Part shown: positions 2,210-41,247 of the stretch, in pieces
How positions within the stretch are numbered: the first letter of the stretch is position 1
How the letters are laid out: each line of letters opens with the position of its first letter
NCBI RefSeq assembly: GCF_008329525.1
Contig: NZ_NPKQ01000011.1
Location: 62,001 to 126,000 of the forward strand
Length of the DNA stretch: 64,000 nucleotides
Source: Tardiphaga sp. P9-11
GTDB taxonomy: Bacteria; Pseudomonadota; Alphaproteobacteria; Rhizobiales; Xanthobacteraceae
Direction: 5' to 3'
The notes under the pieces: model-generated
Database searches by the model: none
What the model was told of the DNA's origin: nothing
Seen by the model: only the letters and a program-made list of their open reading frames with translations
Made by a program: the position numbers and the translations under genes

Positions 2210-3109
2210 ATGAGCGCCCGATTGCCGTCACTCAACGGGCTCCGCGCTTTCGAGGCTGCGGCGCGGCTTCTGAGCTTCACCAATGCGGCGAACGAGCTGA
2301 GCGTCACGCAGACGGCGATCAGCCATCAGATCAAGCGGCTGGAAGAAGAACTCGGCCTCAAACTGTTCATTCGGCAGAACCGCGCTTTGGCGCTGACGCC
2401 GCAGGGCCGCGACTATCTGCCGGGCGTGCGGGCAGCGTTCAACGACCTGCGTCTCGCGACCGACCGGCTAAAGCGCCGGGACAACGATCATGTGCTGACG
2501 GTGAGCACGCTGGCCTCAATGGCCTCGAAATGGCTCCTGCCACGCATCTCAGCATTCCAGAAAGCCCATCCCGATATCGATGTCCGCATCACCACATCGA
2601 CGAGCATGGTCGATTTCAAGAGCGGCGATGTCGATGCCGCGATCCGCTACGGCCGCGGCCAATGGCCGGGCCTGCGCGCCGATTGGCTGACGGCAGACGA
2701 TCTGTTTCCGGTCTGCAGCCCGGCGCTGCTCACCGGCAAGAAGGCCCTGCTGAAGCCGCAGGATCTCGCAAGCTATACGCTACTACATTCGAGCGGTGGC
2801 TATGACGATGACTGGCGGCTCTGGCTCACCGCGGCAGGATTGCCGACCGATATTTCAAAGCAACCGGGCCTGACCTTCGACATGATTTTCATGACGTTGC
2901 AGGCGGCGATCGACGGCCTCGGCGTCGCCATCGGCCGCACCACCTATGTGGAGGGCGATCTTGCCAAGGGCCGGCTGGTGGTGCCCTTCGACATGCGCAT
3001 GCCCGCCGATGCCGGCTTCTACCTGGTGTCCCCCGAAGCCTCGTCGGATTCGCGGAAACTGAAGGCTTTTCGCGACTGGCTGCTCTCCCAGGCTCCCCCA
3101 AGAGGTTGA
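2210..3109 (+). CDS. LysR-family transcriptional regulator, GcvA-like
   Basis: A 299-residue full-length LysR regulator. Residues 6-65 form the winged helix-turn-helix (NGLRAFEAAARLLSFTNAA, then QTAISHQIKRLEEELGLKLF). Residues about 90-295 form the periplasmic-binding-like effector domain. The opening LPSLNGLRAFEAAAR and the sequence of the recognition helix are typical of the GcvA subgroup. It lies directly upstream of the MFS symporter gene on the same strand and could control it, the divergent DUF1127 gene, or both. Confidence 0.88.
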   Translation: MSARLPSLNGLRAFEAAARLLSFTNAANELSVTQTAISHQIKRLEEELGLKLFIRQNRALALTPQGRDYLPGVRAAFNDLRLATDRLKRRDNDHVLTVSTLASMASKWLLPRISAFQKAHPDIDVRITTSTSMVDFKSGDVDAAIRYGRGQWPGLRADWLTADDLFPVCSPALLTGKKALLKPQDLASYTLLHSSGGYDDDWRLWLTAAGLPTDISKQPGLTFDMIFMTLQAAIDGLGVAIGRTTYVEGDLAKGRLVVPFDMRMPADAGFYLVSPEASSDSRKLKAFRDWLLSQAPPRG

Positions 3110-3224
3110 TCCGCCTACGCGTTTTGGGTTGGACGGTCGCGCTTGATGTGGCAGATTGTCGCATAACGGCAGCCCAACTGCCCGGCCGCGCGCTTCGCCG
3201 GTCGTCCGTGACCGGGAGAGAACG

Positions 3225-4544
3225 ATGACGGCATCCAACACGACACTTGCCCAGCCTGCCGAGCTCAAGTCGCGTCTCGGCGCCATCCTGCGCTCGACGT
3301 CGGGCAATTTCCTCGAACAGTTCGATTTCTTCCTGTTCGGCTTCTACGCCACCGCGATCTCCAAGGCATTCTTCCCGCCCGGTAACGACACCAACGCGCT
3401 GCTGCTGACCTTCACCACCTTCTGGCTCGGCGCCTTGATGCGCCCGCTCGGCGCGATCTTCCTCGGCGCCTATATCGATCGCATCGGCCGTCGCAAGGGC
3501 CTGATCGTGACGCTGGCGATCATGGCGCTCGGCACCGTCTTCATCGCGGTGTGCCCAACCTATGCCTCGATCGGCATCGCCGCGCCGATCATCGTGCTGA
3601 TCGGCCGGTTGCTGCAGGGCTTCTCTGCCGGTGTCGAGCTCGGCGGCGTCTCGGTCTATCTGTTTGAAATTTCGACGCCCGGCAATCGCGGCTTCTACAC
3701 GTCGTTCCAGTCGGCGAGCCAGCAGGTCGCTATCTTCGTCGCTGCGCTGCTCGGCTTCTTCCTGAGCGAGGTCATGCCCGCCGATCAGGTCGCGGCTTGG
3801 GGCTGGCGCATTCCGTTCTTTGTCGGCTGCCTGATCGTGCCGTTCATCTTTGTGCTGCGCCGCTCACTGGAAGAGACCCCGGCATTCCTGGCCATGAAGA
3901 AGCATCCGACGGCGTCGGAGATCTTCGCGTCGGCTGCGGTGAACTGGAAGATCATCGTGCTCGGCATGTTCCTCGCCGCGATGACCACCGTGACCTTCTA
4001 CTTCGTCACCGTGTACACGCCGACCTTCGGCAAGAACGTGCTGAAGCTCTCGACGCAGGACAGCCTGCTGGTGACGCTCGCGGTGGCCGTCACCAACTTC
4101 ATCTGGAATCCGGTCGGCGGAGCACTGTCCGATCGCATCGGGCGCAGGCCCGTATTGTTGGCGATCTCGGGCCTCGCGCTTGTGACGGCCTATCCCGCTT
4201 TGCTCTGGCTCACCGCGAATCCGACATTCGGCAAGATGCTCGCCGTGGAAATGTTGTTCTCGTTTTACTTCGGCATGTACAGCGGAACGATGCTGGGCGC
4301 TCTGGTCGAGATCGTTCCGGCGCATGTGCGCACGACCTGCTTCTCGCTGGCCTTCGCCCTCGCCGCGGCTTTGTTCGGCACCTTCACGCCGCTCGCCTCG
4401 ACATGGCTGATCGAACACACCGCGGACCGCGCCTCCCCCGGCTTCTGGCTGATGTTCGCGGCAGCGAGCGGCTTCCTGGCAACGCTGGCGATCTATCGTG
4501 GCGGCGGCCAGACCGTGGAAGCGCCCAAGCCTGTTCCCGCCTAG
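3225..4544 (+). CDS. MFS metabolite:H+ symporter, citrate/tricarballylate type
   Basis: A 12-transmembrane major facilitator protein. The open frame extends upstream to 3156, but the ATG at 3225 has a GGGAGAG ribosome binding site and gives the usual N-terminus (439 residues). Residues 20-200 resemble citrate and tricarballylate H+ symporters ([29 protein letters not shown] loop 2-3 motif; [13 protein letters not shown] in helix 4). The second-half motif [10 protein letters not shown] is also present. The probable substrate is a di- or tricarboxylate, taken up across the inner membrane with protons. The LysR gene just upstream is a plausible regulator. Confidence 0.82.
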
Positions 4545-4637
4545 GCTGCAGCATCGACATCAAGGCATCACGTGTTCGCGAGCAGATTGCCATCCGAAAC
4601 ATGCTAGAAGTCTGGCCTGTTTCGGATGGAGCTTGCG

Positions 4638-5594
4638 ATGAATCGGACGACACTGGCCGCGGTTATCACTCTTCTCACGCTGACGCCTGCGCTCGCGCAG
4701 CAGGCATCTCCGCCGTCGGCACCGCCGCCGCCCGACTTCTCCAAGGTCGAGATCAAGACCACAGACCTCGGCGACGGCGTCTACATGCTCGAAGGCCAGG
4801 GCGGCAACATGACGCTGGCGACGGCCAAGTCGGGCGCCATTCTCGTTGACAGTCAGTTTGCGCCGCTGCACGACAAGATCAAGGCGGCCATCACTGCGGT
4901 GACGCCGCAGCCGGTGAAGTATCTGGTCAACACGCATTTCCACGGCGACCACACCGGCGGCAATGAAGCCTTCGCCAACGAGGGCACGACGATCGTCGCT
5001 CACATCAAGGTCCGGACAAAGCTGAAAAAAGGCTCCGCCAATTTCCTGACCGGCGCGCAGAACCCGCCGGCACCGAAAGCCGCCAGGCCGGTGACGACCT
5101 ATACCAATCAGCTCAAGCTCAGTCTGCGCGGTCGCATCGCCGAACTGCGCCACCCCGATAACGCCCATACCGACGGCGACACCTATGTCTACTTCAAGAG
5201 CGCCAATGTCATTGCAACCGGCGACACATTCACCAATGGACGCTATCCTAATATCGACACCCTCAACGGCGGCAACATCAAGGGCATGATCGCCGCGACC
5301 GATGCCTATCTGAAGCTGGCCAACGACAGTACCAAGATCGTTCCAGGTCATGGCCCTCTGGCGAACAAGGCTGCGCTGGTCGGGTACCGCGCCATGCTGG
5401 TGACAGCCCGCGATCGCATGACCACGCTGATCAAGGAGGGCAAGACCGAGGACGACGTCCTGGCGGCCAAGCCCTTCGCCGATCTCGATGCGAAGTGGGC
5501 GCCGAACGAGACGGCCAGCAAGAACTTCATTCGCGCGGTTTATACGTCGCTGGCGAAAAAGCCTTGGATCAAACCGTGGGGCAAGAAATCATGA
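4638..5594 (+). CDS. Secreted metallo-beta-lactamase-fold hydrolase
   Basis: A 318-residue protein with an N-terminal signal peptide (about 1-20, cut after ALA). The metal-binding motif THFHGDHTGG places ligands at His100, His102, Asp104 and His105. Further ligands are likely in HPDNAHTDGD (His) and the PGHG near the end. Start at 4638 is preferred over an ATG four codons upstream because it begins the signal peptide (MNRTTLAAV). It acts in the periplasm. The family includes class B3-like lactamases and many hydrolases of unknown substrate, and the sequence does not settle which. It overlaps the next gene by ATGA, so the two are translationally coupled. Confidence 0.82.
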   Translation: MNRTTLAAVITLLTLTPALAQQASPPSAPPPPDFSKVEIKTTDLGDGVYMLEGQGGNMTLATAKSGAILVDSQFAPLHDKIKAAITAVTPQPVKYLVNTHFHGDHTGGNEAFANEGTTIVAHIKVRTKLKKGSANFLTGAQNPPAPKAARPVTTYTNQLKLSLRGRIAELRHPDNAHTDGDTYVYFKSANVIATGDTFTNGRYPNIDTLNGGNIKGMIAATDAYLKLANDSTKIVPGHGPLANKAALVGYRAMLVTARDRMTTLIKEGKTEDDVLAAKPFADLDAKWAPNETASKNFIRAVYTSLAKKPWIKPWGKKS

Positions 5595-6079
5595 GAGATC
5601 TCGTCCTCCTCGCCGAGAAGATCGCCATCGAGCTGATCGCGCGCAAGCAGACCATCGGCGTCGCAGAATCCTCCACCGGCGGATTGATCTCCGCCGCACT
5701 GCTGGCCGTGCCTGGCGCCTCCGCCTATTTCATCGGCGGTGGTGTGATCTATACGCGCGATGCGCGGCGCGTGTTGATGGATATTTCCGATGACGCGTTT
5801 CGGATACCGGGCATGCGCTCGTCTTCAGAGCCCTACGCACAACTGCTAGCAACGCAGATCCGCACCCGCCTCGGCTGCGACTGGGGACTGTCGGAGACCG
5901 GAGCCACCGGCCCCTCCGGCAATCGCTATGGCGACGCCGCCGGCCATAGCTGCATGGCCGTCGCCGGCCCTCGGAACGAGGTCATGACGCTGGAGACCGG
6001 CAGTAATGACCGGTCTGGCAACATGCACAGTTTCGCGCAGACGGCATTGACGTTTCTGCTGAAGAATTTGGCGGGGTAG
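5591..6079 (+). CDS. CinA-like C-terminal domain protein (nicotinamide-nucleotide amidohydrolase, PncC type)
   Basis: A 162-residue stand-alone CinA C-terminal domain. Such proteins deamidate nicotinamide mononucleotide to nicotinic acid mononucleotide in pyridine nucleotide recycling. Recognisable segments are GVAESSTGGLISAALLAVPGA near the N-terminus, where the more common Cys of AESCTGG is Ser. SETGATGPSGNRYGD in the middle is the conserved GxxGP region. The ATGA overlap with the upstream hydrolase gene implies coupled translation. The next gene converges on it with only a 7-base gap, so no terminator lies between them. Confidence 0.8.
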   Translation: MRDLVLLAEKIAIELIARKQTIGVAESSTGGLISAALLAVPGASAYFIGGGVIYTRDARRVLMDISDDAFRIPGMRSSSEPYAQLLATQIRTRLGCDWGLSETGATGPSGNRYGDAAGHSCMAVAGPRNEVMTLETGSNDRSGNMHSFAQTALTFLLKNLAG

Positions 6080-6086
6080 GAAGGCG

Positions 6087-7070
6087 TCAGGCCGGCACTG
6101 CCGCTGCCGCCTGCTCCGCCAGAATACACCGCACTACGCGATTGTCCGCGAGTTCGACATTCGGCGGCGGCGCTTCGACACAGCGCGGCTGGGCGAATTT
6201 ACAGCGTGGCGCGAAGGAGCAGTTCACCGGCGGCTTGTCCAGCGACGGTGGCGTGCCCGGAATGGTCTCCAGCCGCGCGCCGCGCTTGGCGCCATGCACC
6301 GTGGAGGCCAGCAGCCCCTGCGGATAGGGATGCACGGCCGAGCGCACGATCTGGCTCAGCGTGCCCTGTTCGACGATCTGGCCGGCATACATCACCGCGA
6401 CACGGTCGCAGATCTCGATGGCCACGCCGATATCATGCGTCACGAAGATGATCGACATGCCGAATTCGCGCTGCAGCTCGCGCAGCAACAGCAGTATCTG
6501 GATCTGCACGGTGGCATCGAGCGCGGTGGTCGGCTCGTCCGCGAGCAGGATCTTCGGCTTGCAGGCCAGCGCCAGCGCGATCATCGCACGCTGCCGCATG
6601 CCGCCGGACATTTCATGCGGATAGGCATCGAGGCGACGCTTCGCAGAGGGAATGCGCACGACCTCGAGCATTTCGAGCGCGCGCTTCACACCCTCGGCCT
6701 GGGTCTTGCCCTCGTGGCGCATCACGCTTTCCGCGATCTGCTGACCGATCGTATAAACGGGATCCAGCGCCAGCGCCGGTTCCTGGAAGATCATCGACAC
6801 CGTCTGGCCGCGAAAGGCCGAGAGCTCGTCGTCGTCGAGCGCCAGCACGTCCTTGCCGAGCACATTCACCGTGCCGGTGATCTGCGTGCGCTTCTTCGGC
6901 AACAGCCGCATCAGCGCGCGCAAGGTGACGCTCTTGCCCGAACCGGACTCGCCGAGCAGGCCGAGCACCTCGCCCTCACCGAGCGTCAGGTTGAGATCAT
7001 TCACCGCATAGACGGTGCGCTCGCCGCCGAACCGGACGTTGAGATTGCGAACGTCGACAAGATTGCTCAT
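6087..7070 (-). CDS. Peptide/nickel-type ABC transporter ATPase, DppD-like
   Basis: A 327-residue nucleotide-binding subunit. It has Walker A GESGSGKS (about 43-50), Q-loop FQEPALALDP, signature SGGMRQR, Walker B ILLADEPTTALD and the switch His in THDIG. The C-terminal oligopeptide/dipeptide extension carries four cysteines (CSFAPRCKFAQPRC plus a later Cys). These resemble the ligands of the iron-sulfur cluster reported for some Opp/Dpp ATPases. The start chosen (7070) overlaps the amidase stop by ATGA; an upstream in-frame start at 7085 is less likely. It is the last gene of the operon, separated from its partner ATPase by the amidase pair. Confidence 0.9.
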   Translation of the reverse strand: MSNLVDVRNLNVRFGGERTVYAVNDLNLTLGEGEVLGLLGESGSGKSVTLRALMRLLPKKRTQITGTVNVLGKDVLALDDDELSAFRGQTVSMIFQEPALALDPVYTIGQQIAESVMRHEGKTQAEGVKRALEMLEVVRIPSAKRRLDAYPHEMSGGMRQRAMIALALACKPKILLADEPTTALDATVQIQILLLLRELQREFGMSIIFVTHDIGVAIEICDRVAVMYAGQIVEQGTLSQIVRSAVHPYPQGLLASTVHGAKRGARLETIPGTPPSLDKPPVNCSFAPRCKFAQPRCVEAPPPNVELADNRVVRCILAEQAAAAVPA

Positions 7071-8482
7071 GCCAACTCCGGGCACTGTTTGTGGAAGTCG
7101 GTCGCGCGCTGGAAGGCCGCGCCAATGGTCAGCAACGTCGTTTCATCGAACGGCCGACCGATCAGCTGCATGCCCACCGGCAGCTTGGACTTGGTGAAGC
7201 CGGCCGGAATCGAGAGACCGGGCAGACCGAGATAGTTGATCGGGCGCGTGAAGCGCGTCAACCGCTGGATCATTGCTTCGGCACCCGAGCTATTGCCGAC
7301 ATCGGTCTCCGCAATGGTCGGCGCCGCGCCGGGCGAAACCGGTGCGAGGACGGCATCAGTGCCGGTCACGGCGGCCAGATAGGCCGCAAGCGCCGGGCCG
7401 CGCCAGCGCAGCGCCTCGATATAGGACACGCCGGTGATCGCGAGGCCGTTTTGCAAACGCATCAGCACCTGCGCGCCGTAATCCTGTGGACGCTCGATCA
7501 TCCAGCGCTTGTGCATTGCTGCGGCTTCCGTCGCGAGCACGAACTGACAGGCCGCCGTGAGCTGGCCCTGATTGGGCAAATCGACCTCAACGATCTTGAC
7601 GCCATCGTCTTTCAGCGTCGCGATGGTGTTCTGCAGAATGGCAGCAGTATCGATGTCCAGATCATCGACATAGAACGCTTTGGGAATGCCGACGGTCATG
7701 CCTTTGGCGGACGCGCGTGTCGCCACCATGTAGTCCGGCACAGGGAGCGTGCTACAGGTCGGATCGAGCGGATCGGCACCGGCCATCAGACCCGTCAGCA
7801 GCGCGCAATCCTCGACGGTACGCGCCAGCGGGCCGACCGTATCCAGCGATTGCGACAGCGGCATCGCCCCGGCGCGACTCACCAGACCGACGGTCGTCTT
7901 CAAACCGGAGACGCCGCAGAAATGCGCCGGCAGGCGGATCGATCCGCCGGTGTCGGAACCCAACGCCGCGAACGTGAGACGCGCCGCAACGGCAGAGCCA
8001 GAACCCGACGACGAACCGCCGGTGACGTGATCGACGTGCCAGGGATTATGCACGGCGCCGTAATGCACGTTGTGGCCGAGCGGGCCGTAGGCGAACTCCA
8101 CCATCTGCAACGAACCGAGCCGCACCGTGCCGGCATCCTTCAGGCGTTGCAGTGACGTTGCCGTCGTGGTGGCAACCCAGTCGCGGCGAATATGCGAGCC
8201 GCATGTCACGACGTGTCCCTCGTCGTAATACATGTCCTTGTGCGCCAGCGGCACGCCATGCAGTGCGCCGCGGCTCTGCCCCCTGGCAAGCGCGGCGTCG
8301 GCCGCGGCCGCCGCCGCTAGCGCTGCATCGGCCTCGATCGACATATAGGCGTTGAGGCTCGGCTGAGACTTCGCAGCGCGATCGAGGCACGACTGCGTGA
8401 CTTCGCGTGACGAAATCTTCTTCGTGGCGATCGCGTCAACGACTTCCGTCAGCGACAGCAATGCGGGTTCGGTAACACTCAT
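7067..8482 (-). CDS. Amidase-signature hydrolase, AtzE/GatA-like
   Basis: A 471-residue amidase-signature enzyme with the complete Ser-cisSer-Lys triad: Lys82 (AHKD), cis-Ser157 (TGGSSSGSGS) and nucleophile Ser181 (GSDTGGSIRLP). Family members hydrolyse amide or urea-type C-N bonds in the cytoplasm. Both ends overlap neighbours by ATGA (the AtzG-like gene upstream, the DppD-like ATPase gene downstream), so translation of the three is coupled. Because it travels with an AtzG-like small subunit, the closest functional analogy is 1-carboxybiuret hydrolase AtzE. Its placement in an ABC importer operon suggests it acts on the imported compound. The actual substrate is unknown. Confidence 0.87.
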   Translation of the reverse strand: MSVTEPALLSLTEVVDAIATKKISSREVTQSCLDRAAKSQPSLNAYMSIEADAALAAAAAADAALARGQSRGALHGVPLAHKDMYYDEGHVVTCGSHIRRDWVATTTATSLQRLKDAGTVRLGSLQMVEFAYGPLGHNVHYGAVHNPWHVDHVTGGSSSGSGSAVAARLTFAALGSDTGGSIRLPAHFCGVSGLKTTVGLVSRAGAMPLSQSLDTVGPLARTVEDCALLTGLMAGADPLDPTCSTLPVPDYMVATRASAKGMTVGIPKAFYVDDLDIDTAAILQNTIATLKDDGVKIVEVDLPNQGQLTAACQFVLATEAAAMHKRWMIERPQDYGAQVLMRLQNGLAITGVSYIEALRWRGPALAAYLAAVTGTDAVLAPVSPGAAPTIAETDVGNSSGAEAMIQRLTRFTRPINYLGLPGLSIPAGFTKSKLPVGMQLIGRPFDETTLLTIGAAFQRATDFHKQCPELA

Positions 8483-8676
8483 TTGGCAGCCTTCGTATTC
8501 TGAACAGCGAGGAAGGTCGCAGGCTCGAGATCGAACGGCAGGGTGCCGGCCACGGCCGCGAATCCTTCGAAGGCCGGACCGATCGAATTGGCGATGCGCT
8601 CCGCAACCTCATCAGAGGCGGGAAGACCGCTGACCTCGGTCAGCGCCTTGATCTGCTTGGCAGTCGGTTTGGTCAT
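8479..8676 (-). CDS. AtzG-like (DUF4089) small amidase partner subunit
   Basis: A 65-residue protein with the features of the AtzG-like family: an N-terminal helix, a second helix IANSIGPAFEGFAAVAG, and the C-terminal LPFDLEPATFLAV. The pattern Glu-Pro-Ala-x-Phe just before the end is characteristic. In the cyanuric acid pathway AtzG is a GatC-like subunit that wraps around the amidase AtzE and is needed for its stability. Here it is directly upstream of the amidase with a 4-base ATGA overlap, which supports a two-subunit enzyme. The family call rests on remembered pattern and context, not on a profile search. Confidence 0.68.
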   Translation of the reverse strand: MTKPTAKQIKALTEVSGLPASDEVAERIANSIGPAFEGFAAVAGTLPFDLEPATFLAVQNTKAAK

Positions 8677-8677
8677 C

Positions 8678-9739
8678 TCAATGCGCTCCTGCAGCAGGTG
8701 CTTTGCTGTGTCCCGAACCCGGGATCGCCATGTAACAGGCAGCCTGATGGCCGGTCACAGTGATTTCAGTCAATTTCGGCGTCGCCTCCCCGCACATCGC
8801 TTCGGCAAAGGGGCAGCGTGTGTGGAAACGGCAGCCGGACGGTGGATCGATCGGGTTCGGCGGATCGCCGGTGATCGGCGGCGTTTCCGTCCGCTTGTCG
8901 GGGTCGGACGACGGCATCGCGGCCAGCAACGCGCGCGTGTACGGATGCGCCGGCCCGTCCCAGACCTCGTCCACCGGACCGAGCTCGACAACCTCGCCGA
9001 GATACATCACCAGCACGCGGTCGGAGATATAGCGCACTACGTTGAGGTCGTGGCTGATGAACAGATAGGTCAGGCCAAATTCGCGCTTGAGATCGACCAG
9101 CAGGTTGAGCACCTGTGCCTCGACCGACTTGTCGAGCGCCGAGACAGCTTCGTCGAGAATGACGAGCCGCGGCGACAGCGCTAGCGCACGCGCGATGTTG
9201 ACGCGCTGACGCTGGCCGCCGGAGACTTCATGCGGATAGCGATTGGCGAAAGTCTCAGGTCGCAGGCCGACCTTGCCGAGCAACTCACGCGCCAGCAGCC
9301 GCGCGGCCTTGTCGGCCATGCCGTGGACCTTTGGTCCGAACGCGATCGATTCCTCGATGGTGAGGCGCGGATTGAGCGACGCATAGCTGTCCTGAAACAC
9401 CATCTGCATGCCGCGGCGCAGCTCGCGCAGCGAGAGCTCGCGTCCGACGGTACGGCCGTCATAGATGATGTCGCCGGAATTGCGCGGCATCAGATGCATC
9501 AGCAACCGCGCGGTCGTCGACTTGCCGCAACCGGACTCGCCGACGATGCCGACGGTCTCGCCCTTGGAAATCGTGAACGACACATCATCCACGGCGCGCA
9601 CGGTCTTGCTTGGCGCGAACAGTCCGCCGCGCACCGGAAAATGCTTGGTCAGGCTGACCACCTGCAACAGCGGCTGTGCAATACCGCCAATGTCTTCCAG
9701 CGGCTCCAGCTTGTCGATTTCTTCTACGGTATCACTCAT
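8678..9739 (-). CDS. Peptide/nickel-type ABC transporter ATPase, DppF-like
   Basis: A 353-residue nucleotide-binding subunit. It has Walker A GESGCGKS, Q-loop FQDSYASLNP, signature VSGGQRQR, Walker B LVILDEAVSALD and switch SHDLN. In Walker B the usual Glu-Pro pair reads Glu-Ala, common in DppF proteins. The C-terminal extension has the Cys cluster CRFHTRCPFAEAMC with a later Cys, as in the DppD-like partner. I use the ATG at 9739, 4 bases after the permease stop, in preference to the upstream GTG at 9766. It is followed after one base by the AtzG-like gene. Confidence 0.9.
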   Translation of the reverse strand: MSDTVEEIDKLEPLEDIGGIAQPLLQVVSLTKHFPVRGGLFAPSKTVRAVDDVSFTISKGETVGIVGESGCGKSTTARLLMHLMPRNSGDIIYDGRTVGRELSLRELRRGMQMVFQDSYASLNPRLTIEESIAFGPKVHGMADKAARLLARELLGKVGLRPETFANRYPHEVSGGQRQRVNIARALALSPRLVILDEAVSALDKSVEAQVLNLLVDLKREFGLTYLFISHDLNVVRYISDRVLVMYLGEVVELGPVDEVWDGPAHPYTRALLAAMPSSDPDKRTETPPITGDPPNPIDPPSGCRFHTRCPFAEAMCGEATPKLTEITVTGHQAACYMAIPGSGHSKAPAAGAH

Positions 9740-9743
9740 GCCA

Positions 9744-10631
9744 TCAGTTCCGGATATCCATGGCACTACGCATGCCGTCGCTCAAAAGATTGAAACAGAT
9801 CGACACTGCGAAGATCATTGCACCGGGGAGTGCTGCCACCCATGGATTGACGTAGATCGCCGTGCGCAGCGTGTTCAGCATCAGGCCCCATTCCGGCTCC
9901 GGTGGCTTGGTGCCGAGACCGAGAAACGACAGGCCTGCGGCAAGGATCATCGATACCGAGATCAGGCCCGTCGCATAGACGAAGATCGAGCCCAGCACAT
10001 TGCCGAGCATGTGCACGCGCATGATCGTGAAGGCGCTCGCGCCCGACGCACGCGCGGCTTCCACATAATCCATGTTGCGCACGCCCGTGGTGACGCTCTC
10101 GGCGACGCGCGTGATCTGCGGCACGAAGACGATCGTCAGCGACACAATCGAGTTCAGAATGCCCGCGCCCAGCGCGCCGGAAATTGCAATGGCCAGCAGG
10201 ACCGAGGGGAACGCATAGAACACGTCGACGGTGCGCATGATCGCGGTATTGAGCTTGCCGCCGACATAGCCCGCGACGAGTCCGAGCGACGTACCGATGA
10301 CGAAAGCGAGGATCACTGGCAGAATGCCGATCAGCAGCGACAGCCGCCCACCATAGATCAGGCGCGCGAGCATGTCGCGACCGAGTTCGTCTGTGCCGAG
10401 CGGATAATTGGGCGTGCCGATGGCGCGCAGGCGACGGATCATCGAGCCCTGATAGGGATCCGCAAGATGCAGATAGGGCGCGAAGATCGCGGCGAGGAAG
10501 ATCAGCAACAGGATGAACGCGCAGACCATCGCGACCTTGTCGCGCGCGATGCGGCGGCCCACCGTGGCCCAATAGCCGCGGGCCTTGCTGGCAGGAGCCA
10601 CCTGCAATGCAGTGTCGGTCATCACGGTCAT
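9744..10631 (-). CDS. Peptide/nickel-type ABC transporter permease, DppC-like
   Basis: A 295-residue inner-membrane permease. An N-terminal cytoplasmic segment and first transmembrane helix (about 38-58) are followed by the DppC-type loop HLADPYQGSMIRR and LGTDELGRDMLARL. The five-helix transport domain carries the EAA-like coupling motif EAARASGASAFTIMRVHMLGN. It pairs with the DppB-like permease encoded 19 bases upstream to form the channel. It is in the same minus-strand operon as the binding protein and both ATPases. Confidence 0.9.
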   Translation of the reverse strand: MTVMTDTALQVAPASKARGYWATVGRRIARDKVAMVCAFILLLIFLAAIFAPYLHLADPYQGSMIRRLRAIGTPNYPLGTDELGRDMLARLIYGGRLSLLIGILPVILAFVIGTSLGLVAGYVGGKLNTAIMRTVDVFYAFPSVLLAIAISGALGAGILNSIVSLTIVFVPQITRVAESVTTGVRNMDYVEAARASGASAFTIMRVHMLGNVLGSIFVYATGLISVSMILAAGLSFLGLGTKPPEPEWGLMLNTLRTAIYVNPWVAALPGAMIFAVSICFNLLSDGMRSAMDIRN

Positions 10632-10650: not shown

Positions 10651-11604
10651 TCAGCTCCGCTTGATGCGCGGATCGATCGACGCCTGCGCGATATCGACCA
10701 GAAGATTGAGGAACACGAAGAACAGCGCCAGCACGAGGATCGTGCCCTGCAGTAGCGGCAGGTCGCGCTGGAAGATCGCGGAGTTCAACAACAGCCCCGA
10801 ACCGGGCCATGAGAACACGGTCTCGATCAGGATCGAGCCGCCGAGCATGTAGCCGAGCTGCAGGCCCATCACGGCCAATGCGGTTGGCGCAGCGTTCTTG
10901 ATAACGTGACGGAACACCTTGGTTTCCTGCAGGCCCTTGGCACGCAGCGCCTCGACGAAATCCTGCGACAGGATGTCGCCAGTGAGTGCGCGCACCGTGC
11001 GCGTCACGATACCCATCGGAATGACCGATGTCGTGATCGCCGGCAGCACCAGATATTTGATGTGCTCCCAGTCCCAGGCCCATGAGCCCGAACCGCCCGG
11101 TCCGGCGCCGACCGCAGGGAGCCAGTTGAGCTGTACCGAGAAGATGATGACCAGCACCATGCCGAGCCAGTAATGCGGCACCGAGACGCCGGCGATGGCG
11201 ATCGAGGTCGCAACCTTGTCGACCCAGGTGTCGCGAAAGTAGCCGGCGATCAGGCCGAAAAACAAACCGAGCGTGAAGCCGATAGCGGCCGCTGCGACGG
11301 CCAGCGTGACGGTGTTGCCAACGGCTTTCAGGACTTCGGCCAACACCGGACGGCCCGTGGCGATGGAGCTGCCGAGATCACCATGTAGCGCGCGCCACAG
11401 CCACAAGCCGAACTGAACTGGCAGCGGACGATCGAAGCCGTAAGCGACGCGGAGCTGCTGCGCCAGTTCCTGCGACGCGTCAGCGGGAAGAATGGCAACG
11501 AGAGGATCGCCGGGTGTGATGTGTACCAGCAGGAAACACACCAGCGCCACGCTGAGGACGATGGGAATGACGTAGACAACACGTCGCGCGATGTAGACGA
11601 ACAC
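10651..11604 (-). CDS. Peptide/nickel-type ABC transporter permease, DppB-like
   Basis: A 317-residue inner-membrane permease of the DppB type. The N-terminal helix (about 9-30) is followed by VHITPGDPLVAILP. A middle stretch GDLGSSIATGRPV precedes the transport domain, whose coupling motif is EALRAKGLQETKVFRHVIKN. The C-terminal PRIKRS tail is the usual basic end of this family. It is the first permease gene after the binding-protein gene and is separated from it by 102 bases that hold a strong hairpin. Confidence 0.9.
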   Translation of the reverse strand: MFVYIARRVVYVIPIVLSVALVCFLLVHITPGDPLVAILPADASQELAQQLRVAYGFDRPLPVQFGLWLWRALHGDLGSSIATGRPVLAEVLKAVGNTVTLAVAAAAIGFTLGLFFGLIAGYFRDTWVDKVATSIAIAGVSVPHYWLGMVLVIIFSVQLNWLPAVGAGPGGSGSWAWDWEHIKYLVLPAITTSVIPMGIVTRTVRALTGDILSQDFVEALRAKGLQETKVFRHVIKNAAPTALAVMGLQLGYMLGGSILIETVFSWPGSGLLLNSAIFQRDLPLLQGTILVLALFFVFLNLLVDIAQASIDPRIKRS

Positions 11605-11706: not shown

Positions 11707-13374
11707 TTACGGCGCGATTGACACCGGCGAGAAGTCGACAAACCAGCTCTTCGGCTGCACGAAGCCCTTGACCTTCGGGCTCAATGCACGCGGGCCGACG
11801 TCATGGGCCACGTAGAGGAAGGCTGCGTCATCGACCGAAGCGGCGTGCAATTCGGCCAGGGCTGCATCGCGTGCCGTCGCATCGAAGGTAGTGCGAGCCT
11901 TGGTCACCAGTTCATCGAACTTCGGATTGTTGATGAAACCCCAGTTGTTGGAGACCGGCGGCGCCATCGACGACTGCAGGAAGCGGACCAGCGCGAAGAA
12001 CGGATCCATCGCCGCGTAGGTGACGTTGGTGGCATCCGAACCGTTTGCGCTCGGATCCTTCACGCCACGGCGCCAGTTGGTGAACAGCGTGTTCCACTCG
12101 ATGACATCGAGCTTGACGTCGAAGTAGCACTCCGCCAGCGCCTGCTGCAGATATTCGTTCATCGGCAGCGGCAGCATCTGGCCGGAGCCCGATGCCGAGG
12201 TCTGCGTCTTCACGGTCAGCTTCTTGCTCGGGCCGTAACCGGCTTCCTTCATCAGCGCTTGTGCGGCCTTCAGATCATACTTGATCTCGAAGGTGGGCTT
12301 GCCGCGCCAGGGGTGGCCGGGCTCGAAGGTGCCGGTCGCCGGCACCATCAGGCCGGCGAGCAAACCGTCCTTCAAACCGTCGCGATCGATGCAGAGATTG
12401 GCGGCCTTGCGGACGCGGATGTCATTCCACGGCGAGCCTTCGACGCGCGAGAACTGCCACGGCCAGACATGCGGCTGCTCGTTCTTCTCGATCTTGAAGC
12501 CGCGCGCGGTGATTTCCTTGACGGCGTCGGGCGCAGGCGCCTCGACCCAGTCGACCTGCCCCGACAGCAGCGCTGCAGTACGGGCGTTGGCTTCCGGCAT
12601 CGGCAGCAACACCATCCTGTCGGTCTTCGGAACGCGGTCCTTGTTCCAGTAGGCGTCGTTCTTCACCAGTTCGAGACGCTCGCGCGGCGTGAACTTCAAC
12701 ATCTTCCACGGGCCGGTGCCGGAGGCTTCGCGGGCGAAGGCCGCCCATGCCGCCTGCGACTTGGCCTTGGCATCAGCGCCTTCGGCCTTGTCGAACAGCG
12801 CCTGCCACTTCGTCGGGCTCGCCATAAAGAGGTTGGTGAGATTGATCGGCAGGAAGGAGTCCGGCTCCTTCGTGGTCAGTTCGACGGTCATGTCGTCGAT
12901 CTTCTTCGCGGACACCAAAGTCGGCATGCGCGAGGCGGTCACACCGACCTGGCTGGCATCGAACTGGACTGCATCTTGTTTGAGCACCTTGTCCACATTC
13001 CAGACCACGGCATCCGCGTTGAAGGCCGAGCCATCGTGGAAAGTAACGCCTGGACGCAGCTTGAAGGTCCACTTCTTCTTGTCCGCGTCGTCCACCTTCC
13101 ATTCGGTCGAGAGTGCTGGGATGACAACACTCGCCTTGGTGGCGGACGAGAGATCCCAGCCGGTCAGGCCGTCATACATTGTGTTCCCGGTGAAACGATT
13201 ACCTTCAAACCCCTGATCGGGCTGGCCGAGCGTGCGTGGAATATCTGCAGCGGTCATGCCGATGCGCAGCACCGTTTCGGCGCGCGCCACCTGAGGCAGG
13301 GTCAGGGCCGTAGCGAGCGTCAGCAAGGTGATTGCTGCCGCGAGACGGCTCTTTGTCGGCTTTTCGATACGCAT
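11707..13374 (-). CDS. ABC transporter substrate-binding protein, family 5 (peptide/opine/nickel type)
   Basis: A 555-residue periplasmic binding protein with a signal peptide (cut after VARA, about residue 32). Family-5 hallmarks are the TEWKVDDADKKKWTFKLRPG segment, VTFHDGSAFNADAVVWNVDK, TGPWKMLKFTPRERLELVKN and a C-terminal domain ending in a tryptophan-containing region. It is the first gene of the importer operon, with GAGGGA upstream of its ATG. The protein encoded divergently at 13609 is a clear paralog. The substrate class (peptide, opine, glutathione, nickel chelate or amide) cannot be decided from sequence. The co-transcribed amidase makes an amide-bearing ligand attractive, but that is inference. 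Confidence 0.9.
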   Translation of the reverse strand: MRIEKPTKSRLAAAITLLTLATALTLPQVARAETVLRIGMTAADIPRTLGQPDQGFEGNRFTGNTMYDGLTGWDLSSATKASVVIPALSTEWKVDDADKKKWTFKLRPGVTFHDGSAFNADAVVWNVDKVLKQDAVQFDASQVGVTASRMPTLVSAKKIDDMTVELTTKEPDSFLPINLTNLFMASPTKWQALFDKAEGADAKAKSQAAWAAFAREASGTGPWKMLKFTPRERLELVKNDAYWNKDRVPKTDRMVLLPMPEANARTAALLSGQVDWVEAPAPDAVKEITARGFKIEKNEQPHVWPWQFSRVEGSPWNDIRVRKAANLCIDRDGLKDGLLAGLMVPATGTFEPGHPWRGKPTFEIKYDLKAAQALMKEAGYGPSKKLTVKTQTSASGSGQMLPLPMNEYLQQALAECYFDVKLDVIEWNTLFTNWRRGVKDPSANGSDATNVTYAAMDPFFALVRFLQSSMAPPVSNNWGFINNPKFDELVTKARTTFDATARDAALAELHAASVDDAAFLYVAHDVGPRALSPKVKGFVQPKSWFVDFSPVSIAP

Positions 13375-13608: not shown

Positions 13609-15207
13609 ATGCGCGTTCGAAGCTCGTTATTTGTTGCGGCCATCGCCGCCGCCATAGGTGCAGCCACGCCGGCGCAAGCCGAAACGGTGGTGCGCTATGG
13701 CATATCGATGGCGGACGTGCCGCTGACCACCGGTCAGCCCGATCGCGGCGCCGGCGGCTACCAGTTCACCGGCTACACGATCTACGACCCGCTCGTCGCC
13801 TGGGAGATGGATGTCGCCGATCGTCCGGGCAAACTCGTTCCCGGTCTCGCCACGGAATGGAAGGTCGACGACACCGACAAGACCAAGTGGCGCTTCACGT
13901 TGCGCAAGGGCGTCAAGTTTCATGACGGTAGCGACTTCAACGCCGACGCGGTGATCTGGAATCTCGACAAGGTGCTGAATGAGAAGGCGCCGCAGTTCGA
14001 CAAGCGCCAGAGCGCGCAGGTCAAGACCCGCCTGCCCTCGGTCGCCAGCTACGCCAAGATCGACGATGGCACTGTCGAGATCACCACCAAGACCGTCGAC
14101 TCCTTCTTCCCCTATCAGATGCTGTGGTTCCTGGTCTCCAGCCCGGCGCAGTATGAGAAGGTCGGCAAGGACTGGGACAAGTTCGCATCGCAGCCGTCGG
14201 GCACCGGCCCGTTCAAGCTAACCAAGCTCGTTCCGCGCGAACTCGCCGAACTCAGCAAGAATCCCGACTACTGGGACAAGAAGCGCATTCCGAAAGCCGA
14301 CAAGCTCGTGCTCGTCCCGATGCCGGAAGCACTGACCCGCACCAATGCGCTGCTCGCCGGTCAAGTCGATCTGATCGAAACCCCCGCTCCTGACGCTGTG
14401 CCGCAGCTCAAGGGCGCCGGCATGAAGATCGTCGACAACGTCACGCCGCATGTCTGGAATTATCATCTCAGCGTACTGCCGGGTTCGCCCTGGACCGACG
14501 TGCGGTTGCGCAAGGCCCTCAACCTCGCCATCGATCGCGATGCCGTCGTCGCGCTGATGAACGGCCTCGCCAAGCCCGCTATCGGCCAGGTCGACCCATC
14601 GAGCCCGTGGTTCGGCAAGCCGACCTTCAAGATCAAGTATGATCTCGCCGAAGCCAAGAGACTGGTGAAGGAAGCCGGCTACGGCCCGGACAAGCCGCTG
14701 AAGGCGACCTTCATCATCGCCAATGGCGGCACCGGCCAGATGCTGTCGCTGCCGATCAACGAATTCCTGCAGCAGAGCTTCAAGGAAATCGGCGTCGAGG
14801 TCGAGTTCAAGGTCGTCGAGCTCGAGGTTCTTTACACCGCATGGCGCAAGGGTGCGGCTGACGAGAGCATGAAGGGCATCACATCCAACAACATCGCTTA
14901 CGTCACCTCGGATCCCCTGTATGCCATCGTGCGCTTCTTCCACTCCGGCCAGATCGCACCGGTCGGCGTGAACTGGGGCGGCTACAAGAACCCGAAAGTC
15001 GATGCGCTGATCGACGAAGCCAAGAACACCTTCGATCCGAAGAAGCAGGACGAGTTGCTGGCCGAGGCTCACGCGCAGATCGTCGATGACGCAGTGCTAG
15101 TTTGGGTCGTCCACGACACCAACCCGCACGCGTTATCGCCGAAGGTGAAGAAGTTCGTGCAGGCCCAGCACTGGTTCCAGGACCTGACCACGATCGGTAT
15201 GGATTAA
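13609..15207 (+). CDS. ABC transporter substrate-binding protein, family 5, divergent paralog
   Basis: A 532-residue periplasmic binding protein with a signal peptide (cut after AQA, about residue 24). It shares long segments with the operon-encoded protein: TEWKVDD, GVKFHDGSDFNADAVIWNLDK, and PEALTRTNALLAGQVDLIETPAPDAV. No permease or ATPase follows it, so it most likely feeds the same DppBCDF-type channel, widening or tuning its ligand range. A GGAG ribosome binding site lies at 13596-13599. The 234-base gap to the divergent gene holds a CTGCAA-cc-TTGCAG dyad (13473-13486) and no clear promoter that I could assign. An intrinsic terminator follows. Confidence 0.9.
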   Translation: MRVRSSLFVAAIAAAIGAATPAQAETVVRYGISMADVPLTTGQPDRGAGGYQFTGYTIYDPLVAWEMDVADRPGKLVPGLATEWKVDDTDKTKWRFTLRKGVKFHDGSDFNADAVIWNLDKVLNEKAPQFDKRQSAQVKTRLPSVASYAKIDDGTVEITTKTVDSFFPYQMLWFLVSSPAQYEKVGKDWDKFASQPSGTGPFKLTKLVPRELAELSKNPDYWDKKRIPKADKLVLVPMPEALTRTNALLAGQVDLIETPAPDAVPQLKGAGMKIVDNVTPHVWNYHLSVLPGSPWTDVRLRKALNLAIDRDAVVALMNGLAKPAIGQVDPSSPWFGKPTFKIKYDLAEAKRLVKEAGYGPDKPLKATFIIANGGTGQMLSLPINEFLQQSFKEIGVEVEFKVVELEVLYTAWRKGAADESMKGITSNNIAYVTSDPLYAIVRFFHSGQIAPVGVNWGGYKNPKVDALIDEAKNTFDPKKQDELLAEAHAQIVDDAVLVWVVHDTNPHALSPKVKKFVQAQHWFQDLTTIGMD

Positions 15208-34662: not shown

Positions 34663-35403
34663 TCATGACCTGAACAGCCGCGTATATTGCGTCTCGTGAC
34701 GCATGCTGGCGATATCGGAGCGGAATGTTGCGCCACCGAGATCGTCGAGTGATGCGACCAACGCGCGATGGCCGGTGGCCACGACGACGGACTCCAGCGC
34801 TGCAAGAACGCGCTGGCTGTCGGTCTGGCCGAGCGGCACCAGCCGCGCGCCAGCGGAAATCCAGTTCGAGATCACCGCGTGGAAAAAACCATGCATGGTT
34901 GCTGACAGCGTCACACCATGCGCGGCGCTCACAAGTCCGACAGCGACGGGATAGACAATCGGACTGTCGCACACCGCGATCAGCCGCTCCATCCCCTCAT
35001 GTGCCCAGGCATTGCGCGCGATCTCGATGAAGGCCTTGCCCTGCGTGGTGGTTTCGAGCTGACGTTCCCTTGATGGCACGAAGGCGCTGGCGAGTTCGGC
35101 AACCTCGCGCAGTGCCTTGTCGTCGCCATCGGATGCTGCGCGATGCACATGTGCGAGAAACACGCCGTCGCAAAAGCCCGCGCCATCGGACAGCATAGCC
35201 GACAGCCAGTCCTGCAACGACGCGGCATCGGTGATGTCGCCGGCCTCGACGGCCCATTCGATGCCGCTGGAATAGGAGAACGCGCCGACCGGAAAGGCTG
35301 GCGACAGCCAGGTCATCAGCCGATACAGCGCAGCGCCTTCGTCGGCGGACAAAGCGGGAGAGTCGTTCAGCGAGCTATTGTCCGCTGGCCTATTTGTGGT
35401 CAT
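34663..35403 (-). CDS. ureF: Urease accessory protein UreF
   Basis: A 246-residue all-helical accessory protein that bridges UreD and UreG in nickel delivery. It has the family pattern [29 protein letters not shown] near the N-terminus and a C-terminal [12 protein letters not shown] region. The frame stays open to 35625, but that extension is only the His-rich ureE tail read in another frame (Met/Ile/Thr-rich). The ATG at 35403 (MTTNRPADN) is the sensible start and overlaps the ureE stop by 14 bases. Confidence 0.92.
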
Positions 35404-36046
35404 GAGCATGAGAATGACCGTGGTGGTCGTGCTTGCTGTCATGATCATGCGCATGATCGCGATCATGGTGATGATCGTGACCGCAATGCTCGTCATGGAC
35501 ATGCTCGGCATGACCATGCGCATGATGGCCATGATCATCTTTGCCGTGATCGTGCCCGTGATGATCGTGACCGTGATGACCATGATCATGATGGTCGTGA
35601 CCAGCCGGCTCATGTGCCGCGGCATAGGCGCCGCCTTCGGGATCGAACGGCGCCTCGATCTCGATCACGCGCGCGCCGAGACCCTTCACCATCTCCTCGA
35701 TGACATGGTCGCTGCGGATGCGCAGCCCCTTGGCCATGATCTGCGTGGGCAGATGACGGTTGCCGAGATGCCAGGCGAGCCGCACCAGATGGCCGGGATC
35801 GGTGCCGCGGATCTCGATGAGCGGCTCCGGTGCGGCGACCACCTCGATGAGGCGGCCATCTTCCAGCACCAGGGCGTCGCCACCGCGCAAGGCGGTGGCG
35901 TTTTCGAGATCGAGCAGGAATTCCAGTCCGCGCGTTCCCGTCATCGCCATGCGGCGACGATGTCGGTCGTCGAAGTCGAGGACGACGGTATCCACCGCCG
36001 CCTCTTTCCAGTTGAATTGGCCTTTGACTTCAGTCGCGCGGATCAT
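35390..36046 (-). CDS. ureE: Urease accessory nickel chaperone UreE with long His-rich tail
   Basis: A 218-residue metallochaperone. The N-terminal peptide-binding domain (about 1-70) and nickel-binding domain ([23 protein letters not shown], with the conserved metal His in RSDHVIEEM) are standard. Residues from about 150 to the end are almost entirely His, Asp and Gly in HD/HG repeats, more than 30 histidines, a nickel-storing tail. The start at 36046 (MIRATEV) is chosen over 36115. The tail's CAT/CAC-rich DNA leaves several other frames open, which explains long spurious frames here. Confidence 0.95.
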
Positions 36047-36062
36047 TCCGTTGTCTTCCTGC

Positions 36063-36362
36063 TCAGAACTTCTCGACCTTGCCGTCACTGATGATCTCGA
36101 TGACGGTCGGTGCAACTTTCAACGGCGCTGAATATTCGCGCCAGACTTTCATATGCGGGGCCTTGCCGTGTGCGTTGAGATCCTCTCGGGTCTCCCAGCG
36201 CTCCACCACCACGAACAGATTGGGATCGTGGATACTGGTATGGTTCTCATAGGAGATGCAGCCCTTCTCCTGGCGCGTGGCAGCGATACACTCCTTGGCG
36301 CCCTTGATGAAATCATCGCGGCATTCCGGTTTCACCTGGCTGGTGGCAACGACATAAATCAT
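36063..36362 (-). CDS. ABM-domain (antibiotic biosynthesis monooxygenase-like) small protein, copy 2
   Basis: A 99-residue single-domain protein with the ferredoxin-like ABM fold pattern. Beta strand [10 protein letters not shown], a helix containing [17 protein letters not shown], and CISYENH lead to [23 protein letters not shown]. It is a paralog of the neighbouring protein at 36378-36677. ABM-domain proteins include cofactor-free monooxygenases, heme-degrading enzymes and many dimers of unknown role. It sits between ureC and ureE in the urease transcription unit (16 bases before ureE), which suggests co-expression with urease; no function there is established. Confidence 0.75.
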
Positions 36363-36377
36363 GTTGTTTCCCTCCCG

Positions 36378-36677
36378 TCAGCGCACGGTGACGTCGGCGG
36401 GCGTGATGACTTCGATCTTCGGCGGCGCGCTCAGGCAATTTGCCGCCACGCGGCCAAATGCCTTGAAGTGATCGGCCTTGCGGTGCGGCTCCAGCGCCTC
36501 GGCATTCTCCCACTGTTCGACGAACACCATCTTGGTCGGATCGGTCACGCTCTCATGCAGGTCATAGGCGATATTGCCGGGTTCCTTCCGGGTCCCTGCG
36601 ATGCAGGCCTGTGCGGCGGCGATGAGTTCGGCACGTGCTTCCGGCTTCACGGTCAGTGTGGCAACGACGTAAATCAA
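36378..36677 (-). CDS. ABM-domain (antibiotic biosynthesis monooxygenase-like) small protein, copy 1
   Basis: A 99-residue ABM-domain protein starting at a TTG (36677) behind a strong GGGAGGA site. Its pattern MIYVVATLTVKPEARAEL, ACIAGTRKEPGNIAYDLHESV and MVFVEQWENAEALEPHRKADHF matches its neighbour closely, so the pair arose by duplication. It is the first gene after the 219-base ureC-downstream gap that contains a palindromic repeat. It could act as a homodimer or as a heterodimer with the second copy. The substrate is unknown. Confidence 0.75.
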   Translation of the reverse strand: MIYVVATLTVKPEARAELIAAAQACIAGTRKEPGNIAYDLHESVTDPTKMVFVEQWENAEALEPHRKADHFKAFGRVAANCLSAPPKIEVITPADVTVR

Positions 36678-36768
36678 GGGAGTCCTCCCGGTTTTCTTGT
36701 TGTGGCTGAGACTGCCGGGACGGACATTAGGAGGTAATGGCCGGGGATTGAAGGGGGCGCTTTCTCAT

Positions 36769-36872
36769 TCCTCCCCCTTGCGGGGAGAGTGGCCGCGCGC
36801 AGCACGGTCGGGTGGGGGTGCCACAAGCTCCGCGCCGGTGGAAGCACCCCACCACCGCGCTGGAGGGAGGGA
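36769..36872. repeat. GC-rich dispersed palindromic element inside the urease operon
   Basis: The segment starts CTCCCCCTTGCGGGGAG and ends near TGGAGGGAGGGATCACGC, with GTCGGGTGGGGGTG and CCCCACCACCGCGC in between, giving nested inverted repeats. I recognise this kind of sequence as a high-copy intergenic element of Bradyrhizobium-like genomes. It lies between ureC and the first ABM gene, and its folding could weaken read-through into the accessory genes. Copy number cannot be checked from this window. Confidence 0.6.
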
Positions 36873-36896
36873 TCACGCAACCTCCGTTCTCTGGCA

Positions 36897-38609: not shown

Positions 38610-38610
38610 G

Positions 38611-38916
38611 TCAGAGCTTCCCCATCACGTCACCACGGAAACCGTAGACGGTACGCTTGCCGGCGAGTTCTACCAGTTGCACATCGCGGGTCTGGCCGGG
38701 CTCGAACCGCACAGCGGTGCCAGCGGCGATGTCCAGGCGCATGCCGCGTGCTTTCTTGCGGTCGAATTTCAGCGCCGGGTTGGTTTCGAAGAAATGATAG
38801 TGCGAGCCGACCTGGATCGGCCGGTCGCCGGAATTCGCCACCGTGAGCGTCACGGTCTTGCGCCCGGCATTGAGCTCGATCTCGCCGTCCTGGATGAAGA
38901 GTTCGCCGGGGATCAT
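38611..38916 (-). CDS. ureB: Urease beta subunit UreB
   Basis: A 101-residue structural subunit of urease with [19 protein letters not shown] at the start and [22 protein letters not shown], the family's invariant segment. [16 protein letters not shown] is near the end. It is separated from ureA by the DUF4375 gene, an insertion in the usual ureA-ureB adjacency. Ten bases separate it from that gene. Confidence 0.96.
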
Positions 38917-38926
38917 GGCCGTTCCT

Positions 38927-39352
38927 TTACAGATCTTCGTCTTCGCTCAGTTTGAGCTCGTAGGCCACGACGGCTTTTTGGATGGCATCCTCATGATCGC
39001 CGAGCGGGCTGTTCAAATCCCAGAGCCTGTTGCCGAGCGGACTTGATGGATCCAGCATCGCCTTGAGCGCCAGATCGCGCCAGTCGTCCTGATCACCAGG
39101 AAATTCGGCAATCGCCGCCTCGACTATCGGCGCCGCCTCGGGTGCGCCGACGATCCTGAGCGCCTCGGGGATCAACACGATGTCCGCGCGATTCCAGTTC
39201 GCAAACAGTTGCGACAGACCGCCGTTGTACCACTCACCCTGAAACCGCTCGACCAATGCCAGAGCATCCTCGGGCACGCTCAGGTCGAAGTCGGCCAGGT
39301 CCTTCCAGCTGCGCTTCGACGGGGCGTCGGCCATGACGGCAGTCTCCATCAC
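38927..39352 (-). CDS. DUF4375-like protein embedded between ureA and ureB
   Basis: A 141-residue acidic, soluble protein. The pattern [34 protein letters not shown] matches the DUF4375 (DMP19-like) family, in which an NGG-x-x-Q-F/L-F motif precedes a helix. The function of the family is poorly known. Its start overlaps the ureA stop by ATGA and it ends ten bases before ureB, so it is co-translated with the structural subunits. A role in urease assembly or activity is suggested by position only. The family call is from memory of the motif. Confidence 0.65.
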
Positions 39353-39651: not shown

Positions 39652-39669
39652 CGGCAGGTCTCTGTAAGT

Positions 39670-40524: not shown

Positions 40525-40548
40525 GTACTCTCCGGCTTTGAGCCCGCG

Positions 40549-41244: not shown

Positions 41245-41247
41245 GCG

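Follow-up and report, generated by a model that had tools for sequence, protein, structure and literature searches.

Organization of the importer operon

In a 64,000-nucleotide stretch of the genome of the soil bacterium Tardiphaga sp. P9-11, hereafter the window, to whose full length all positions refer, we analysed an operon, encoded entirely on the minus strand, in which the genes of a 65-residue protein and of an amidase stand between the two ATPase genes of an ATP-binding cassette (ABC) importer. The open reading frames (ORFs) and their Pfam matches confirmed the gene order described in the initial annotation, that is, a solute-binding protein (SBP1), DppB, DppC, DppF, the small ORF, the amidase and DppD (Table 1). 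The importer is a complete one of the Opp/Dpp type, comprising an SBP_bac_5 protein, two BPD_transp_1 permeases and two ATPases with oligo_HPY tails. As had been pointed out before, ATGA forms the junction both of the small ORF with the amidase and of the amidase with DppD. The window sequence also shows a gap of one base between the DppF stop codon and the ATG of the small ORF.

A second, divergently transcribed binding protein gene, SBP2, adjoins the operon in most Tardiphaga and Bradyrhizobium loci and is missing in L053, L057-L060 and L062. SBP2 perhaps serves the same importer as SBP1, in which case the divergent pair may stand for two ligands, or two affinities, of one importer. When both proteins were compared with the PDB, the matched chains carried mixed ligands, with agrocinopine, haem and nickel binders among them.

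Table 1. Genes of the operon and the adjoining binding protein gene, with their positions in the window
Feature	Positions	Strand	Evidence
SBP1, family-5 solute-binding protein of the importer	11707..13374	-	PF00496 (SBP_bac_5) 1.4e-70
DppB-type permease	10651..11604	-	PF00528 (BPD_transp_1) 1.1e-40
DppC-type permease	9744..10631	-	PF00528 1.5e-22; OppC_N 1.1e-9
DppF-type ATPase	8678..9766	-	PF00005 (ABC_tran) 1.5e-33; oligo_HPY 3.8e-21
GatC-like small protein, 65 residues, probable small subunit, no named family	8479..8676	-	Profile-profile kinship to GatC and AtzG; purifying selection
Amidase-signature enzyme, 471 residues, Lys82/Ser157/Ser181	7067..8482	-	PF01425 1.8e-106
DppD-type ATPase, ATGA overlap with the amidase	6087..7070	-	PF00005 1.7e-29; oligo_HPY 1.5e-14
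SBP2, second family-5 binding protein, divergently transcribed	13609..15207	+	PF00496 8.2e-79; 50% identical to SBP1

The small protein and its relation to GatC and AtzG

Judged by its pattern of substitutions, the small ORF is a real gene under purifying selection: the ratio of nonsynonymous to synonymous differences (pN/pS) was 0.02-0.04 against its three nearest relatives, with a median of 0.33 over 105 pairs (15 sequences), and among its 65 codons 60 varied at position 3, 35 at position 1 and 30 at position 2. Its product belongs to no named family. Searched alone, the 65-residue protein of the window gave DUF7279 at an E-value of 0.41 as its sole Pfam match, no NCBIfam match, and unrelated chains only in the PDB. 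The initial annotation had likened it to AtzG and proposed a search against AtzG-like profiles; neither the AtzG-like PF13318 nor the GatC family PF02686 was matched at E<=1 by any of 39 aligned small proteins (an alignment that leaves out L061 and L066 of the 40 small rows found), in a scan where the HMMER filters discard most matches above E of about 0.1, and the identification as AtzG is not supported. The same scan produced scattered matches to unrelated families, with best E-values of 0.056 (Pfam) and 0.03 (NCBIfam), which we take as chance. The one PF02686 match of the window's own genome sits on contig C23, whereas the window is on C3.

Profile-profile comparison suggests a remote kinship of the small family with GatC as well as with AtzG, weak but above the level of shuffled profiles. 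Using hhalign, it aligned to GatC with a score of 27.0 (probability 59%) over 35 columns, at residues 2-36 only, and co-linearly to AtzG with a score of 22.3 (probability 35%) over 52 columns; the maxima from 100 column shuffles each were 16.25 and 16.5, below the real scores, and AtzG against GatC scored just 11.7 in the same test. Among 177,635 PDB sequences, the top match of the small profile was Staphylococcus aureus GatC (2df4_C), residues 1-37 on 1-37, at an E-value of 0.035 that is not significant alone. The AlphaFold model of the protein is helical, with a predicted local distance difference test score (pLDDT) of 84, and Foldseek matched it to four GatC chains within the 50 listed of 60 matches, with query template modelling (TM) scores of 0.50-0.58; the model comparison seems too weak to decide alone. 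The residues E51-P52 are invariant in all 39 small proteins, and by eye an EP is also present in the matching region of most AtzG and GatC rows, the GatC profile alignment ending before there. AtzEG itself is held by one account to derive from GatCA (PMC6219798). We detected the small family at 64 of 111 loci (52 distinct sequences, some genomes being present twice), and at all 64 the small gene ends no more than about 30 bases from the amidase start, the upstream side being the one inspected.

The amidase forms a clade beside AtzE and GatA

The partner gene encodes a full-length amidase-signature enzyme (PF01425, 357 bits). Its Lys82, Ser157 and Ser181, already highlighted by the initial annotation, occur without exception in the 76 aligned amidases, and they are kept in each small-partner-clade, AtzE and GatA row having letters there; before this alignment, four amidases (three short, one with a stop) and the cut L041 were omitted from 80 named loci. 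In NCBIfam the enzyme matches AtzE models best, at scores below their cut-offs (TIGR02715, 324.4 against 425.75 bits; NF006631, 324 against 461), whereas the true AtzE of the same genome reaches 720 bits against the AtzE model. Nor was the cut-off of the gatA model reached (306.7 against 481.1 bits). The nine best PDB structures for the amidase model (pLDDT 95.4) were all GatA or AtzE chains, and peptide amidase appeared at ranks 11-13.

In a tree of 79 rows, made by removing 19 long or remote rows from 98 (an earlier tree had used a hand-picked subset, including 17 of 30 AtzE-linked loci), amidases of the window type group separately from AtzE and GatA. The window enzyme lies within a 38-row clade (support 100/99), AtzE is a closed clade of 17 rows that does not hold it (100/100), and GatA is a separate clade of 8 rows (100/100), the three together standing apart from 16 other amidases (100/99). 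The tree leaves the sister pairing among the three undecided (p-values of the approximately unbiased test, p-AU, 0.453 and 0.107), small-partner amidases plus AtzE as a single clade not being rejected at 0.453. Within the 38-row clade, 28 rows have a partner detected by hidden Markov model and three, from Ancylobacter, a weak one.

Conservation of the gene order

The amidase was searched for in 61 genomes, 18 of the same genus, 19 from the rest of the family and 24 from the wider order. A close amidase is present in all 18 congeneric genomes (identity at least 74%, two partial), and in 16 of them the core DppC-DppF-small-amidase-DppD was found in 4.4-kb loci; the remaining two loci end at contig edges and agree on the visible side, which bears out the expected presence of the pair in the same operon of close relatives. 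The nearest named amidases include that of Tardiphaga robiniae (96-97% identity). Of the 19 genomes from elsewhere in the family, 7 have the amidase at 57% identity or more, and DppF and DppD flank it in five of these seven, once with a gap of about 770 bases. Best matches in the 24 wider-order genomes were far weaker (top E 6.3e-91, 37% identity).

A survey of how often the seven-gene order recurs, called for by the initial annotation, was carried out on the 80 named loci, many from genomes also in the 61-genome set. The small gene was detected at 40 of the 80. All seven genes are present at 22 of the 51 loci with enough flank (5.5 kb before and 1 kb after the amidase), and divided by amidase identity this amounts to 22 of 23 loci at 57% or above (the exception being L061) and 0 of 28 below. 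Since at these loci the seven genes occur together only at or above 57% identity and the pair also occurs without the importer, the pair is the wider unit, and the same distribution places the importer embedding in a single alphaproteobacterial branch.

Other small-protein/amidase pairs

The genome of the window has at least two further small-protein/amidase pairs. One of them, L174, is a genuine AtzG-AtzE-AtzH set with an AtzG that matches PF13318 at 65.7 bits; it directly follows a family-5-type importer in which both ATPases appear as a single ORF of 590 codons, and the sole match of the genome to the AtzH family PF11533 adjoins this set, not the window pair. At the other, L173 (C12:978500-997500), a 64-residue protein overlaps an amidase about 45% identical to that of the window, and the pair lies 1-7 bases behind the ABC ATPase gene of a Peripla_BP_6 importer and before an amidohydrolase gene. 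The three pairs, two of the window lineage and one AtzG-AtzE, are thus each located directly behind an ABC-importer ATPase gene. The L173 cluster also contains an isochorismatase, two polysaccharide-deacetylase-like proteins, an FAA hydrolase and a flavin reductase, and is probably catabolic.

An amidase match was present in 12 plasmid records, and in each of the four inspected a 'hypothetical protein' of 60-78 residues overlaps the amidase start. Beside these pairs lie tripartite ATP-independent periplasmic (TRAP) transporter genes in Azospirillum, hydantoinase/oxoprolinase genes and ABC importers in Agrobacterium, an Opp-type importer with the 5-oxoprolinase PxpA in Bosea, and AmiS/UreI in Rhodococcus. 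The hydantoinase/oxoprolinase neighbours would fit ureido or lactam-derived acids, but the two relatives concerned are just 44-46% identical. A profile of 11 outlying small proteins matched the window family with a probability of 96% and a score of 44.7 (shuffle maximum 12.0), and did not reach AtzG (10.5) or GatC (10.2). This match may owe most to the rows from Bosea, Agrobacterium and Ancylobacter, which match better; scored singly, the Azospirillum protein and those of L026, L028, L078 and L079 gave at most 9 bits, and the Rhodococcus one was unmatched. We are inclined, with some caution, to regard the pairs of the window type as a third lineage within the GatC/GatA branch, made up of two-subunit amidases, which would be patchy in Alpha- and Betaproteobacteria and possibly reach Actinomycetota, would have unnamed partners of 60-80 residues, and would serve as a plug-in catabolic enzyme on many kinds of importer. 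One Tardiphaga genome would then have at least three GatC-like/amidase pairs, two from this lineage and one AtzG-AtzE.

Active-site residues and the class of substrate

By an eye-counted alignment, Arg342 of the window amidase was matched to Arg358 of S. aureus GatA, and this site is Arg in 31/31 small-partner, 17/17 AtzE and 11/11 GatA rows. His324 is kept in all 31 small-partner, all 7 outer and all 17 AtzE rows, and is Leu in the 11 GatA rows. The site of GatA Asp425 holds T or S in 28 of the 31 small-partner rows and G in all 17 AtzE rows; 7 of the 11 GatA rows extend this far, and these have Asp. At the position of Arg413, Arg is present in 31/31 small-partner and 7/7 outer rows, Gln in 17/17 AtzE rows and Val in the 7 GatA rows with letters there. 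In GatA, Arg358 and Asp425 presumably hold the carboxylate and the amine of glutamine, respectively, and from these roles we infer a substrate that has a carboxylate and lacks the alpha-amine. Going by these residues, which is the weakest step of our argument, the substrate is most likely a small, carboxylate-bearing amide or ureide that has no free alpha-amine; oxalurate, 1-carboxybiuret and N-carbamoyl acids would be candidate kinds.

Neighbouring genes of the distant pairs were of many kinds (AAT/C45 acyltransferase-type, PhzF, arginase, saccharopine dehydrogenase, M24 and M14 peptidases, a flavin mononucleotide oxidoreductase and others) and gave no shared substrate. At two betaproteobacterial relatives of the pair, L070:4483-9407 and L071:996-5904, saccharopine-dehydrogenase-like genes lie alongside, together with an arginase-family gene at L070 and a pyridoxal-phosphate-decarboxylase-like gene at L071, hinting at polyamine metabolism there. 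Because these two loci adjoin polyamine-type genes and because AguY, a GatA-like enzyme, acts on N-carbamoylputrescine (PMC12283126), this compound was considered too; it was set aside for the window, where no polyamine-type gene was present among the scanned neighbours.

A probable importer-coupled two-subunit amidase

The 65-residue protein is probably a GatC-like, non-catalytic subunit that assembles with the amidase, the two forming a cytoplasmic third lineage beside GatCA(B) and AtzG-AtzE whose hydrolysis is coupled to import. The pair is encoded, presumably as one transcription unit, with an Opp/Dpp-type importer, and therefore the imported compound would be hydrolysed on arrival; since the pair is tightly joined to the importer and kept so in close relatives, an import-and-hydrolyse unit, as the initial annotation had proposed, is still the best reading. 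In such a unit SBP1, and perhaps SBP2, would hand a small nitrogen-containing compound to DppB-DppC, with DppF and DppD powering the import, and in the cytoplasm the amidase, stabilised by the 65-residue subunit, would set free either ammonia or a carbamoyl fragment.

Compared with known systems, the pair resembles AtzG-AtzE (the 1-carboxybiuret hydrolase of Pseudomonas sp. ADP) and the AtzG-AtzE-AtzH clusters of Proteobacteria in that the gene of a small, presumably non-catalytic GatC-like subunit directly precedes that of an amidase-signature enzyme, and in the H324 and R342 that its amidase has in common with the AtzE rows; ABC importer genes are often near AtzG-AtzE clusters as well (PMC6219798). 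It differs in its small protein outside PF13318, its amidase below the AtzE cut-off and in another clade, its Arg413 in place of the Gln of AtzE, the missing AtzH and the position of the pair between two ATPase genes. Though outside AtzG/AtzE by membership tests, the pair probably works like AtzG-AtzE. It is GatC-GatA of GatCAB that the amidase matches best in both sequence and fold, with the catalytic triad and the R358 equivalent in common, and to which the small profile has its top PDB sequence match, a weak one, whereas the window's small protein has no PF02686 match, the Asp425 site is replaced, and no GatB was found among the operon neighbours scanned with Pfam and NCBIfam. HpxX and HpxZ, the cluster partners of the oxalurate amidohydrolase HpxY, are homologues of AtzG and AtzH. 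HpxY acts in purine catabolism and is named as close to AtzE (PMC12625717); no purine genes were recognised among the operon's scanned neighbours. The importer has the full Opp/Dpp (peptide/nickel) complement of binding protein, two permeases and two ATPases, but differs in its second, divergent binding protein and in the two foreign genes that interrupt it, which give the order B-C-F-pair-D.

Several observations weigh against a GatC-like subunit coupled to import. In the PDB profile search TAF6L comes right behind GatC (E 0.046 against 0.035), the GatC matches of the small-protein model in Foldseek have E-values of 1.3-6.1 with a TAF protein ranked first, and no AtzG chain occurs among 19 PDB profile matches or the 50 listed of 60 Foldseek matches; the kinship to GatC and AtzG is weak by its hhalign probabilities, the GatC alignment stopping at residue 36. 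Four of the 38 clade rows (L026, L078, L079 and L173) have only a similar-looking overlapping ORF, two (L076 and L080) have no recognisable partner, and L077 is cut; the clade rows without a recognisable partner slightly lowered our confidence in the main reading. The Arg342 site is Arg in three of seven outer clade members and not Arg in the other four. Two of the seven family relatives (G022 and G029) have the pair without an adjoining importer, also over 19-kb stretches, and 13 of the 40 small-bearing named loci lack DppF or the importer beside the pair. The family is patchy, with 19 of 387 genomes of the class and 15 of 264 genera matched in a profile search that scored at most 16 candidates per genome. 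Finally, neither SBP1 nor SBP2 indicates a ligand in comparison with the PDB.

These points bear differently on the alternatives. The small protein could be an unrelated short helper or regulator that is no kin of GatC, leaving the amidase to act alone, as its lack of a named family, its weak profile and fold scores and the partnerless L076 and L080 would allow; we find this unlikely given the closeness of the small gene to the amidase start at 64 loci (seen upstream), the co-linear AtzG and partial GatC alignments that beat 100 of 100 shuffles, and the grouping of the amidase with GatA and AtzE, lineages having GatC-type partners, apart from the 16 other amidases. It is less likely still that the amidase acts on an imported peptide or peptide amide. 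An importer of the Opp/Dpp kind and the presence of peptide amidase among the structural matches speak for such a substrate, yet family-5 binding proteins take many non-peptide ligands, as the agrocinopine, haem and nickel binders exemplify, and GatA and AtzE are nearer to the amidase than peptide amidase is. We would give equally little weight to the pair being a hitch-hiker between the ATPase genes, co-transcribed with the importer and metabolically unrelated to it: the 13 loci just mentioned agree with this, but 22 of 23 close loci keep the order, the window itself has the ATGA couplings, and clade relatives adjoin importers of other kinds (Peripla_BP_6 ABC, TRAP, PotD/Opp ABC, AmiS/UreI). 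Least probable is mere divergence, with the pair being a true AtzE-AtzG 1-carboxybiuret hydrolase or a relative that hydrolyses oxalurate. For this the top NCBIfam rank of the AtzE models, the common H324 (Leu in GatA) and the unrejected single clade can be cited, and against it stand the amidase score beneath the AtzE cut-off, the 39 small proteins outside PF13318, the closed AtzE clade and the AtzH gene beside the other set. On these same four grounds we rejected the filing of the window pair as AtzE/AtzG, so that of the AtzE/AtzG pair in an importer operon first described, the joining to the importer stands and the family membership does not.

The interest of the arrangement lies more in an unrecognised small-protein family than in the one operon. 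Many amidase-signature genes are named merely 'amidase', as on the matched plasmids. AtzE is reported to be insoluble without AtzG (PMC6219798), and should such amidases need an unrecognised small subunit, those expressed alone may likewise be insoluble or inactive; knowing the partner would then aid their expression. It would also suggest that the GatC/GatA scaffold entered catabolism at least twice, or on a broader front than AtzG-AtzE alone, and would make this an operon where importer ligand and enzyme substrate should be one molecule. No paper on the pair described here was seen among those listed by the literature searches, which did not extend to subscription papers.

Surroundings of the operon

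About 20 kb from the operon, urease genes for UreF, the alpha subunit and UreD lie on the minus strand at 34663-44875, with two BPD_transp_2 permease genes upstream. A match to the Rfam 5' ureB small RNA (sRNA) family (96 bits) at 38168-38456 on the plus strand is antisense inside the urease alpha gene; the match is therefore probably due to conservation of the urease coding sequence, and as evidence for an sRNA it is weak. On the other side, genes for a LysR regulator, a major facilitator superfamily permease, a SoxH-related protein of the metallo-beta-lactamase fold and a CinA/PncC-type protein (2210-6079, plus strand) converge on the operon, and in Tardiphaga and Bradyrhizobium these neighbours are in part conserved next to it.

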